Shown here piece by piece: positions 46,536 to 50,014 of a DNA stretch of 64,000 bases. Positions within the stretch are counted from its first letter, which is position 1. Every line of letters begins with the position of its first letter. A model generated the notes under the pieces. The model saw only the letters and a program-made list of their open reading frames with translations. It did not search any database and had not been told where the DNA came from. The stretch comes from Frigoribacterium sp. CFBP 13712 (GTDB lineage Bacteria; Actinomycetota; Actinomycetes; Actinomycetales; Microbacteriaceae). A program made the translations under genes and the position numbers. Where the stretch lies: NCBI RefSeq assembly GCF_014842255.1, contig NZ_JACYVH010000003.1, positions 1-64,000 on the forward strand, in the 5' to 3' direction.

Positions 46536-46783
46536 GAGCCGCCTCCGCGGTGTCGGGCCGTGGGCGCGGGGCGTGTAATAATGGATCACGGACCCGTTCG
46601 TTTCTCGTTCACCCCGTCGTCGCTGTCGCGATCGACTTCCGGCACGAGACTTGACATGGGTCCTAGTACTGCCCGAAATCGACCGACGCCATCCGTTTGC
46701 CGGTCGAGGTCCGACGAGCACGGTCCCACCGATCACGCTGGTCGCACCCGGACCCGAGCAATAGAGATGTGAAAGGTGTTCGC
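46536..46783 (+). promoter_or_regulatory. Promoter and long leader of sigA
   Basis: TGTAATAAT (46574-46582) reads as an extended -10 element, giving a leader of about 195 nt before ATG 46784. This differs from the leaderless pattern of most neighbours. A second possible element is TTGACA (46651-46656) without a well spaced -10. GAAAGGTG (46771-46778) is the ribosome-binding site. Confidence 0.5.
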
Positions 46784-47998
46784 ATGGCTACCCGCAGCAA
46801 GGCGACCACGGCCTCAGACGAGTCCGTGACCGACGAGACGAAGGTCGCGGCCGACGTCCCCGCGAAGAAGGCGCCCGCGAAGCGCGCTCCGGCGAAGAAG
46901 GCCGCCCCCAAGGCTGCCAAGGCCGCCGACGAGGCTCCGGCCGACGACGACGCCGAGTCGCAGGAGGCCCCCGCCGAGACGGACGCCGACGCGACCGACA
47001 AGGCCCCCGAGATCCTGCCCAAGGGCGCACTCGTCATCTCTCAAGACGACGACGACGAGATGCCGGTCTACTCGACGACCATCACGGGCGCCACGGCCGA
47101 CCCGGTCAAGGACTACCTGAAGCAGATCGGCAAGGTCGCCCTTCTGAACGCCGCCGAAGAGGTGGAGCTGGCGATGCGGATCGAAGCCGGTCTGTTCGCC
47201 GAAGACAAGCTGGCGGCCAGCTCCGGTTTGAGCAAAGAGCTCGAGCGCGAACTCCGCTGGGTCGCGCGCGACGGACAGCGTGCGAAGAGCCACCTGCTCG
47301 GTGCCAACCTCCGCCTCGTGGTCAGCCTCGCCAAGCGCTACACGGGCCGTGGGATGCAGTTCCTCGACCTGATCCAAGAGGGCAACCTCGGTCTGATCCG
47401 CGCCGTCGAGAAGTTCGACTACACCAAGGGATTCAAGTTCTCGACCTACGCCACCTGGTGGATCCGTCAGGCCATCACCCGGGCCATGGCCGACCAGGCC
47501 CGCACCATCCGCATCCCCGTGCACATGGTCGAGGTCATCAACAAGCTCGCCCGCGTGCAGCGTCAGATGCTGCAGGATCTCGGTCGCGAGCCCACGCCCG
47601 AAGAGCTCTCGCGCGAGCTCGACATGACCCCCGAGAAGGTCGTCGAGGTCCAGAAGTACGGGCGCGAGCCGATCTCGCTGCACACTCCTCTCGGTGAAGA
47701 CGGCGACAGCGAGTTCGGCGACCTCATCGAAGACACGGAGGCTGTCGTCCCGGCCGACGCCGTGGGCTTCACGATGCTGCAGAAGCAGCTCGAGTCGCTG
47801 CTCGACAGCCTCTCCGAGCGTGAGGCGGGCGTCATCCGGATGCGCTTCGGCCTGGGTGACGGCATGCCCAAGACGCTCGATCAGATCGGCGACACCTTCG
47901 GCGTGACGCGCGAGCGCATCCGCCAGATCGAGTCCAAGACGATGGCCAAGCTGCGCCACCCGTCCCGATCGCAGTCGCTCCGCGACTACCTCGAGTAG
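46784..47998 (+). CDS. sigA: Primary RNA polymerase sigma factor (RpoD/SigA)
   Basis: 404-residue housekeeping sigma factor. A Lys/Ala/Pro- and acid-rich N-terminal extension (about 1-85) is typical of actinobacteria. Region 1.2 begins [16 protein letters not shown], region 2 has [32 protein letters not shown] (-10 recognition), region 3 follows, and region 4 has [22 protein letters not shown] (-35 recognition). ATG 46784 is used because it follows the ribosome-binding site; the upstream frame has no family resemblance. murT-like begins four bases downstream, so co-transcription is likely. Confidence 0.97.
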
Positions 47999-48002
47999 AG
48001 AC

Positions 48003-49262
48003 ATGAAGTACGTCGTCCCCGTCCTGGCGGGCCGGATCGTCCGCGCCCTCGCGCGCCTCCGAGGCGGGGGATCCGCCTATCCGGGGCGCACGGTCCTCGC
48101 CCTCGCCCCCGACTTCCTCACCCATGTCTCGTCGCAGTTCGAGCGCGGGGTCGTCTTCGTCCTCGGTTCGAACGGCAAGTCGACGACGACGATGATGCTG
48201 ACCGAGACGCTGCGGGCTCACGGTCTCACGGTGTTCACGAACCCCACCGGCGCCAACCTGCCGCAGGGGATCGCGTCGGCGTTCCTCCGTGAGGTCACGC
48301 CGTTCGGCGACGTGAAGCACGACATCGGCGTGATCGAGGTCGACGAGGCCTTCGCCGTCGAACTGACGAAGTCCCTGAACCCCTCGACCGTGCTCATGCT
48401 GAACGTGCAGGTCGACCAGCTGTACCGCTTCTTCGAGACGGAGCGCGTCGGCACGATGATGACCGACACAGCCGCCCTGGCGACGTCGTCGGTGATCACC
48501 AACCGCGACGACCAGCACCTCGGGCCGTACACGGCCCGTCCCGGTCAGTCGGTCACGCGTTTCGGCGCCGCACCGGCGGTCGTCGCGGCATCGCCCAACG
48601 GGCTCCAGAACGCCAACGACTTCACCAGGCGGGCCGACGACTCGCTCGACGCGCAAGCCGAGGTCCTGACTCTCGACGGCGCGGGTGCGACCATCCGGGT
48701 CGGCGACGTCACGGTCGACGTGCAGCTGCCGGCCCGCGGTCTGCACTACGCCGTCGACGCGGCGGCAGCTCTGCAGACGGCCTCCGTCGTGCTGGGCGGG
48801 CCGGTCGACGCCGTGGCCGTCTCTCGCGCCTTCGACGGCATGAAGCCGGCCTACGGGCGGGGTGAGCGCATGTCGCTCGGCACCGACGAGGCCGAGTTCA
48901 TCATGTTCAAGAACGCAGCGAGTCTGCAGATGAACCTCGACGCGCTTCCGCAGGGGGTCGAGCAGGTGATGCTCGCCATCGACGAGGGCACGCCCGACAT
49001 CTCGTGGATCTACGACATCGACTTCTCCCACCTCGATCACGTCGACGTGCTCGCGGGCGCCAAAGCCTGGCAGCTGGCCCTCCGGCTCGAGCACGAGGGG
49101 ATCCCCGTGCACGTCATCGAGGAGGACATCTCGAAGGCCATCCGCCTCATGCGCGCTCTCCCGTCGCCCGGTGATCGCACCAAGCACTTCGTGACGAACT
49201 ACGAGCAGATGATGCTCGCGCGCCGCATCCTCGGCCACCCCGATCTGGAGAAGAGCGCGTGA
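48003..49262 (+). CDS. MurT-like Mur ligase (DUF1727) without zinc ribbon
   Basis: 419-residue Mur-ligase-family protein. The ATP loop is GSNGKSTT (55-62), followed by FTNPTGANLPQGIAS typical of MurT, and the C-terminal DUF1727 domain has DISWIYDIDFSHLDHV. MurT activates the alpha-carboxyl of D-Glu on lipid II with ATP so that ammonia from GatD yields D-isoglutamine. Canonical MurT has a Cys4 zinc ribbon in the middle; this protein contains no cysteine at all, and the NP(A/V)GxN loop is changed to KNAASLQMN. It overlaps a GatD-like gene by four bases. A modified activity is inferred (see findings). Confidence 0.85.
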   Translation: MKYVVPVLAGRIVRALARLRGGGSAYPGRTVLALAPDFLTHVSSQFERGVVFVLGSNGKSTTTMMLTETLRAHGLTVFTNPTGANLPQGIASAFLREVTPFGDVKHDIGVIEVDEAFAVELTKSLNPSTVLMLNVQVDQLYRFFETERVGTMMTDTAALATSSVITNRDDQHLGPYTARPGQSVTRFGAAPAVVAASPNGLQNANDFTRRADDSLDAQAEVLTLDGAGATIRVGDVTVDVQLPARGLHYAVDAAAALQTASVVLGGPVDAVAVSRAFDGMKPAYGRGERMSLGTDEAEFIMFKNAASLQMNLDALPQGVEQVMLAIDEGTPDISWIYDIDFSHLDHVDVLAGAKAWQLALRLEHEGIPVHVIEEDISKAIRLMRALPSPGDRTKHFVTNYEQMMLARRILGHPDLEKSA

Positions 49263-50014
49263 GCGACGACGTCCTGAGAATCGTCCACGTCTACCCCGAA
49301 GAACTCGGGGTGAGCGGTGATCGTGGCAACGTGACGACCCTGGTCGAACGTGCACGACGCGCCGGGATCGATTCGGAGGTCACCGAGTACCGCATCGGGG
49401 ACGACGTCCCCTCGGTGGCCGACGTGGTCGTGCTGGGCCACGGTCCGCTCTCGGGCGTCCGCTCAGTGAGCGTCGACGCCGTCCGACTCCGCGACGCCTT
49501 CGAGGGCTTCGCCCGGTCGGGGGTCCCGGTCGTCGCCGTCGGCGGCGGCATGGAGCTCCTCACACGAGGCGTCGTCACGGTCGAGGGCGACACCGTCGAA
49601 GGCGTCGGGTTCTTCGATGCGCTCGTCCGTCGCGGCGCACCGCGACGCACGAACTACTTCCAGGTCACCACCCAGTACGGGGGAGACGACCTCACCCTCT
49701 TCGGCTTCGAGGACCACGCCGCCCACCTCGAGCTCGGCGCGGGCTCGCGTCCGTTCGCGACCGTCGTCCACGGCGGCGGCAACGGGTCAGACGGCGCCGA
49801 GGGTGTCGTCCGGGGCACGTCGTTCGGCACGCAGCTGAAGGGCCCCCTGCTTCCCCTCAATCCCGGTCTCACGGACCGGATCCTCCGGACGGCGCTCTCG
49901 CGTCGCGGCATCTCGTACGGTCTCACCCCGGCCCACGAGAAGCTCGATCAGTACGCGGCCGCGTCGCAACGGGTGATCGCCGACAACCTGGAACGGTCGT
50001 TCAAGGCGATGTGA
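49259..50014 (+). CDS. GatD-like class I amidotransferase homologue with lost catalytic residues
   Basis: 251-residue protein aligned by eye with GatD: VSGDRGNV (19-25) matches the SDIGN start, VVAVGGGMELL (91-101) the nucleophile elbow, EGVGFFD the following strand, and GTSFGTQLKGPLLPLNPGLTD (186-206) the His-bearing loop. The nucleophile Cys of CGGYQ is Gly95 and the catalytic His of LHGP is Lys194; no cysteine remains in the protein. So glutamine hydrolysis is not possible by the known mechanism, though the fold and pairing with a MurT-like ligase are kept. ATGA-type overlap with murT-like implies a complex. Confidence 0.85.
   Translation: MSDDVLRIVHVYPEELGVSGDRGNVTTLVERARRAGIDSEVTEYRIGDDVPSVADVVVLGHGPLSGVRSVSVDAVRLRDAFEGFARSGVPVVAVGGGMELLTRGVVTVEGDTVEGVGFFDALVRRGAPRRTNYFQVTTQYGGDDLTLFGFEDHAAHLELGAGSRPFATVVHGGGNGSDGAEGVVRGTSFGTQLKGPLLPLNPGLTDRILRTALSRRGISYGLTPAHEKLDQYAAASQRVIADNLERSFKAM

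Follow-up and report, generated by a model that had tools for sequence, protein, structure and literature searches.

The analysed stretch (hereafter the window) comprises 64,000 nucleotides, positions 1 to 64,000 of contig NZ_JACYVH010000003.1 of Frigoribacterium sp. CFBP 13712 (assembly GCF_014842255.1). Directly after the primary sigma factor gene sigA it carries a murT-like and a gatD-like gene, whose products probably form a ligase that adds an amino acid, likeliest the D-diamino acid of the B2 peptidoglycan bridge, to the alpha-carboxyl of D-Glu, with a glutaminase-dead GatD as partner. On a wider scale, there is a reasonable case that conversion of MurT/GatD from an ammonia amidotransferase to a B2 bridge-starting ligase, in which the silenced glutaminase stayed as an obligatory subunit, happened on at least two occasions, one in Actinomycetota and one in Clostridia, and that some Clostridia possess their own D-ornithine supply (arginase plus ornithine racemase). 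The residue losses, conservation, selection, folds, two origins, joint subunit change and racemase neighbours reported below were all computed here.

To our knowledge, no enzyme has yet been named as the one that puts the bridge residue on the D-Glu alpha-carboxyl. A literature search combining MurT/GatD with Microbacteriaceae found no paper, and searches for MurT/GatD with type B peptidoglycan, or for type B ligases, gave no paper naming such a role among the matches listed. The classification of group B walls dates from 1972 (Schleifer and Kandler, according to the available part of the source). The Streptococcus pneumoniae paper describes the murT-gatD operon as universal in Actinobacteria, and the string "Microbacteri" is absent from its text.

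Loss of the glutaminase site in the window pair

An earlier note on this DNA, made from the letters alone, had reported two overlapping MurT/GatD-like genes directly after sigA, and the open reading frame (ORF) coordinates and Pfam matches agree with it. All three genes lie on the plus strand, and the two genes of the pair overlap by four bases:

46697..47998, + strand, sigA, primary sigma factor (ORF list; listed with a TTG start, possibly starting further in)
48003..49262, + strand, murT-like gene, 419 amino acids, no Cys (ORF list, Pfam, solved MurT chains, AlphaFold2)
49259..50014, + strand, gatD-like gene, 251 amino acids, no Cys, glutaminase site lost (ORF list, Pfam, solved GatD chains, AlphaFold2)

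Pfam matched Mur_ligase_M and MurT_C in the murT product and GATase_3 in the gatD product, and found no UDP-MurNAc-binding N-terminal domain in the MurT-like protein besides these two domains. The closest solved structures were the MurT/GatD chains of S. pneumoniae, Staphylococcus aureus and Streptococcus pyogenes, and the pair scored far under the NCBIfam equivalog cut-offs (97.4 of 800 bits for MurT and 75.4 of 400 bits for GatD). The search for a second intact pair, proposed in the earlier note, gave no further MurT_C match in the whole genome, leaving the window gene as the sole one; two partial GATase_3 matches lie elsewhere. Mur-middle-domain matches numbered six, namely the window gene, four clustered ones (~281-290 kb, contig C3), which we take for MurC-F, and a lone one elsewhere, taken for FolC.

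Alignment placed the functional sites of the two proteins as follows:

48165..48185, + strand, ATP loop GSNGKST, MurT residues 55-61, kept
48240..48257, + strand, acceptor loop NPTGAN, MurT 80-85, kept
48402..48437, + strand, GatD-facing loop NVQVDQLYRFFE, MurT 134-145
48981..48998, + strand, C-terminal-domain motif DEGTPD, MurT 327-332, in place of canonical xxADGRD (S. aureus DNAAD...D349), final Asp kept
49313..49315, + strand, Ser19 of GatD; Tyr in all 70 Cys-bearing rows (aligned S. aureus Tyr17, S. pneumoniae Tyr30)
49541..49543, + strand, Gly95 of GatD for the nucleophile Cys (AVGGGMELL)
49643..49645, + strand, Arg129 of GatD, kept; aligned with S. aureus Arg128, which binds the incoming glutamine
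49838..49840, + strand, Lys194 of GatD for the catalytic His (TQLKGPLL)

Both glutaminase substitutions can be read directly in the GatD sequence and a count gave no Cys in either protein, as the earlier note had stated. Its claim that the NP(A/V)GxN acceptor loop is altered does not hold, given that NPTGAN aligns with NPSGAN of S. pneumoniae and that both Asn residues are invariant in 42 aligned MurTs, canonical ones included. The second Asn, Asn85 by residue count, equals Asn85 of S. pneumoniae MurT, whose change to Ala gives an inactive enzyme (S. pneumoniae structure paper). The Mg-binding Glu is also kept in the window MurT (EVDE), and the ATP-loop Lys, acceptor Asn, Glu and Arg are all invariant across the 42 MurTs. 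Likewise, loss of the Cys4 zinc ribbon, presented earlier as a special feature, turned out to be common: the window MurT has no Cys, canonical MurTs of the order's other families hold at most one Cys in that region (30 of 30), and the available parts of two papers confine the Cys tetrad to a subset of MurTs.

The changes that do set the window MurT apart face GatD. In canonical MurTs the GatD-facing loop reads R-D-Q-(L/M)-D-R, and its first Arg is the gate of the ammonia passage (S. pneumoniae structure paper). Val137 replaces this gate Arg (aligned S. pneumoniae Arg135) in the window protein, while the Asp and second Arg of the loop are kept. The replaced C-terminal motif corresponds to the S. 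aureus DNAAD/D349 stretch, which adjoins the glutaminase site and for which contact with the stem peptide has been proposed (S. aureus paper).

Distribution in Microbacteriaceae and linkage to sigA

A GatD relative was present in 156 of 199 Microbacteriaceae genomes. Among 90 aligned family rows (window included, copies of the window dropped), the nucleophile Cys was absent in 82 and present in 8, and the catalytic-His column of the same 90 rows, the 8 Cys-bearing ones included, held H in 52, Q in 15, K in 12, G in 8 and another residue in 3. Judged from this alignment, Lys194 is special to the window's clade, unlike the loss of Cys. By comparison, both Cys and His were kept in 30 of 30 GatD loci from other families of the order.

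Named records gave the same picture, with Cys absent in 41 of 41 Microbacteriaceae GatD rows and present in 48 of 48 others among the matches listed. The named Cys-less genera were Curtobacterium, Agromyces, Microbacterium, Frigoribacterium, Rathayibacter, Clavibacter, Leifsonia, Subtercola, Herbiconiux, Agreia, Planctomonas, Cryobacterium and others. This sample was drawn with a MurT pattern requiring E-(V/I/M)-D-E and D-Q, the 89 of 119 stretches that reach the GatD column were counted, and family membership was decided from record titles. In a sequence version, with the wall types of the comparison species presumed, the comparison of type A with type B species proposed in the earlier note came out in favour of its idea. 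Moreover, each of 18 named Microbacteriaceae genomes had exactly one MurT_C match.

Of the 96 family loci with sufficient flank (some genomes counted twice, copies of the window included), 81 had a sigA motif just upstream, and two more lay slightly beyond the cut. In contrast, no such motif was found upstream in 11 flanked family loci with a canonical, gate-Arg-bearing MurT, nor in 30 canonical loci of other families. By this measure the variant is the sigA-linked ortholog in Microbacteriaceae. Two variant loci, L095 and L102, were without an upstream sigA motif; the former pair, from a genome of 927,303 bp (G308), has diverged and carries Ser/His at the site.

Joint change of the two subunits

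Across 233 MurT/GatD pairs, 144 were without both the GatD Cys and the MurT gate Arg, 87 had both, two were without Cys only and none showed the reverse, so that the state of the gate Arg matched that of the Cys in 231 of 233 pairs, counts that include some genomes twice and do not represent independent events. The xxADGRD motif was present in its GRD form in 69 of 77 gate-Arg-bearing rows. It was changed in the Microbacteriaceae variants, mostly to DEGTPD, or to GSDVRD and other forms (exact EGTPD in 73 of 129), and was absent from 23 clostridial rows; the motif adjoining the GatD site has been replaced in both lineages.

Among the cases with a paper on the wall, which cover few clades, the MurT motif FKNAA occurred in genera whose wall contains D-Lys or D-Orn (Frigoribacterium, Agreia) and MKNP/VQNP in those with diaminobutyric acid (DAB; Clavibacter, Subtercola, Cryobacterium), a correlation between motif and bridge diamino acid that is only suggestive. 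A simple B1/B2 split of the MurT subclades was dropped because the tree mixes genera, Microbacterium grouping with Frigoribacterium, Agreia and Curtobacterium, and Agromyces with Rathayibacter.

A second lineage in Clostridia and apparent replacement at sigA

MurT_C was found in 212 of 392 genomes of the class of a Blautia metagenome-assembled genome (MAG), that is, Clostridia. Examination covered 26 of the weakest-scoring of the 212, and 24 of the 25 aligned clostridial GatD rows were without Cys; of these 24, 23 had a residue other than His at the second position and one was cut off. The Cys/His-less clade includes Eubacterium limosum (ATCC 8486) and probably Acetobacterium woodii. Both species are presumably group B, and we take Butyribacterium rettgeri to be E. 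limosum. According to the available part of a review table, the genus Eubacterium comprises B2alpha besides A types. The E. limosum type-strain wall contains Lys, Orn and Ser. For Acetobacterium, the literature search gave nothing on the wall type itself among the matches listed.

In the MurT tree, the Microbacteriaceae variants formed one clade (81 rows; Shimodaira-Hasegawa-like approximate likelihood-ratio test, SH-aLRT, 100) adjoining the order's canonical MurTs, with Frigoribacterium as the closest named relative of the window; a distant clade held the clostridial variants (21 rows, SH-aLRT 98). The tree was built from 233 rows thinned by hand to 147, carries SH-aLRT support only and raised a long-branch warning that includes row L097. 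Within the clostridial clade, and with its motifs, fell two Microbacteriaceae rows, L097 and L098. The L098 pair and that of its congener L288 (77% identical MurT), from genomes G442 and G401 of genus g141, lie directly after sigA, and the L097 pair (G398) follows sigA with one gene between. We read this arrangement as an apparent replacement of the native pair by a transferred clostridial-type pair at sigA, with caution as to the long branch of L097; a clostridial-type pair in the native pair's place is what would be expected if both types do the same job.

The gene between sigA and the clostridial-type murT in G398 (L097:3395-4255) has a partial F420_ligase match (PF01996) and possibly encodes another amide ligase. 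L271, L272, L273 and L275 represent yet another GatD type of Clostridia, in which the nucleophile position is occupied by Asn (e.g., NNALDI).

Selection and predicted folds

The ratio of nonsynonymous to synonymous substitution rates (dN/dS, NG86), calculated against four congeners and two Frigoribacterium strains, was 0.10-0.15 for murT and 0.17-0.21 for gatD, and rose to 0.26-0.48 against four more distant relatives. AlphaFold2 single-chain models reached a mean predicted local distance difference test score of 94.2 for GatD and 92.2 for MurT. Foldseek returned S. aureus GatD (6gs2_A, template modeling (TM) score 0.87) as the top PDB match of the GatD model, and for the MurT model MurT chains came first, with TM scores of 0.5-0.7 that are probably lowered by a different angle between the two domains. 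Decay of this single gene pair, which the earlier note had allowed for, is excluded by the purifying selection, the confident folds and the conservation across the family.

Neighbour genes and wall chemistry

In two clostridial genomes an ornithine racemase gene comes after murT-gatD in the same orientation, almost or entirely without a gap (NF040742, E 3.2e-123 and 2.4e-137, both somewhat below the NCBIfam cut-off), and in one of them an arginase gene then follows (TIGR01229, E 6e-62, below cut-off). The strings, recognized by profile matches, are:

L338:2517-6677 and L337:4389-7588, each on one strand, murT-gatD-ornithine racemase(-arginase)

Such a string would be an apparent route from arginine through ornithine and D-ornithine to the ligase. 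Downstream of the pair in E. limosum and A. woodii come an MnmA-like gene and then glmM, two genes after gatD.

Genus-level papers on the carriers fit a B2 wall, and the window strain may have one too. The B2beta type with D-Lys is given for Frigoribacterium, B2gamma for both Subtercola (with DAB) and Agreia (with L-DAB and D-Orn), and B2beta with DAB for Rhodoluna; in Clavibacter michiganensis, D-DAB bridges D-Glu and D-Ala, and Microbacterium is given as type B with ornithine or lysine in the available part of its source.

Proposed mechanism and alternative explanations

We infer the substrate, the reaction and the lipid stage as follows. The MurT/GatD complex would no longer produce ammonia from glutamine, and MurT would form an acyl phosphate at the D-Glu alpha-carboxyl of the lipid-linked precursor. 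This acyl phosphate would then be attacked by an amino acid from solution, likeliest the bridge D-diamino acid (D-Lys in Frigoribacterium, D-Orn or D-DAB in relatives), an attack that would start the 2->4 cross-bridge of a group B2 wall. The dead GatD may have been kept as a structural partner of MurT, possibly shaping a new amine site. According to the available part of PMC3266927, S. aureus GatD C94G stops glutamine- but not ammonia-dependent amidation (pH 8.5) and MurT alone is inactive; since this mutant keeps ammonia use while MurT still needs GatD, a MurT supplied with an external amine can work with a dead GatD. If the proposal is true, one gene pair would help predict wall type from a genome, the shift of the cross-link from position 3 to position 2 would be explained, a glutaminase would have been recruited as a dead scaffold, and the automatic annotation of these genes as isoglutaminyl synthase would call for a warning.

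Several findings weigh against this proposal. The pair is missing from many bacteria expected to have group B walls. MurT was absent from 33 of 40 tested GatD-negative Microbacteriaceae genomes and present in 7 (40 of 43 such genomes were tested, 20 of them with a second profile only, E<=1e-15; eight passed the E-value, and the match in G237 was not MurT on inspection). Similarly, MurT was found in only 37 of 198 genomes of G036's genus, which groups with named Microbacterium in the MurT tree, and in none of the other 161 at E<=1e-20. A Cys/His pair occurred in six Microbacteriaceae loci of five genera (g95, g97, g104, g142 and g161), and no variant pair was found beside it in the genomes of those loci; where the flank allows judging, none of these Cys/His copies adjoins sigA, and the tree places two of them with Acidimicrobiia. 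The clostridial-type pairs L098 and L264 are without Cys yet keep the gate Arg. Arg129 is kept in Microbacteriaceae, but 19 of 25 clostridial rows have a gap in its column; no amine-site residue common to both lineages was thus found, and a conserved Arg as universal amine-binding residue is unsupported in Clostridia. A racemase neighbour was present in only 2 of 20 wide regions searched and in none from Microbacteriaceae, the peptidoglycan types of most carriers come from genus-level literature or recall, and two main origins amount to few independent data points.

These absences argue that the pair is not a ligase for group B walls at large, and a few genera keep Cys/His elsewhere in the genome. 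The pair may perhaps serve only B2 walls, in which the D-diamino acid sits directly on D-Glu, and not Gly-first B1 walls. Otherwise, the earlier idea of a group B bridge ligase with a dead GatD gained from the confinement of the Cys-less form, which none of the 30 other-family loci or the 48 non-Microbacteriaceae rows showed among the matches listed, and from a second, unrelated lineage with group B members and the same loss, but it does not extend to every group B bacterium. Because the pattern is family-wide and found in two lineages, it is more than chance.

It is unlikely, although conceivable, that the pair is an amino-acid ligase with another task than starting the B2 bridge, e.g., adding Gly to D-Glu or acting on another carboxyl or substrate. 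Some carriers may not be B2, as Microbacterium has type B lysine/ornithine species, and the C-terminal motif differs among several MurT subclades; against this, the racemase and arginase neighbours indicate a D-diamino acid, as does, within its few clades, the pairing of FKNAA with D-Lys/D-Orn genera and of MKNP/VQNP with DAB genera. A glutaminase-free amidotransferase, forming D-isoglutamine or another amide from free ammonia, appears improbable. The ATP and acceptor sites it would need are kept, and the S. aureus complex of MurT and GatD C94G can use NH3 to amidate lipid II at pH 8.5, but this ammonia use failed at pH 7.5 (both in the available part of PMC3266927). Moreover, the same carboxyl holds the bridge residue in carrier genera with a published B2 wall, and in nearly every pair the gate Arg and C-terminal motif disappeared along with the Cys, a loss not needed for ammonia use. 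The least probable of the explanations weighed, and a very doubtful one, is a decayed or regulatory leftover that binds the precursor or sigma-linked signals and catalyzes nothing. While the sigA linkage across the family would suit such a role and the scattered absence suggests that the pair can be lost, it is opposed by the ATP-loop Lys, acceptor Asn, Glu and Arg invariant in 42 MurTs, by dN/dS values of 0.10-0.21 and confident folds, and by the parallel clostridial origin and the apparent replacement at the sigA site.

Comparison with known systems

The window pair has in common with the MurT/GatD isoglutaminyl synthase of S. aureus, S. pneumoniae and S. pyogenes (6gs2, 6fqb and 9sq9) the gene order, both folds, the ATP loop, the acceptor Asn, the Mg Glu and the DxSW Asp, whereas it is without the nucleophile Cys/His, the gate Arg and xxADGRD and falls below the equivalog cut-offs. 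The S. aureus GatD C94G mutant carries the identical Cys-to-Gly change, and its MurT works with an external amine and needs GatD (available part of PMC3266927); that change was made in the laboratory in a complex with an otherwise unaltered MurT, whereas the change in the window pair is natural, family-wide and coupled to changes in MurT. The archaeal MurT-like proteins represent MurT relatives in another kind of wall, pseudomurein, and archaea with MurT-like proteins only have no GatD homolog, according to the available part of PMC11915815, while GatD is kept as a dead partner in the window pair.

With MurE and MurF, the window MurT has in common the central and C-terminal domains of one superfamily, and MurF chains were among its next-best structural matches. 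MurE and MurF act on UDP precursors and possess an N-terminal UDP-binding domain, a domain that Pfam did not find in the window MurT. The tRNA-dependent bridge enzymes FemX and MurM would likewise build an interpeptide bridge, but they have a different fold and usually add L-amino acids or Gly, and FemAB (PF02388) had no match in the pair or in the window genome.

Additional observations

A variant and a canonical Cys/His pair occur together in G431 (L044, L084) and G341 (L052, L122), which could show a division of labour. At L123 (G310:C1:429643-430353), a GatD match contains one in-frame TAG and represents either a pseudogene or a sequence error. The MurT of L286 (G300, genus g97) has clostridial-type L264 as its best match at 37% identity, and other members of its genus are canonical. 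A contig of an Acidobacteria MAG (L167) carries a Microbacteriaceae-type, sigA-linked murT and is probably contamination of the MAG. Finally, the patchy presence of the pair within one genus (the 37 of 198 Microbacterium-genus genomes) offers a natural experiment for wall typing.

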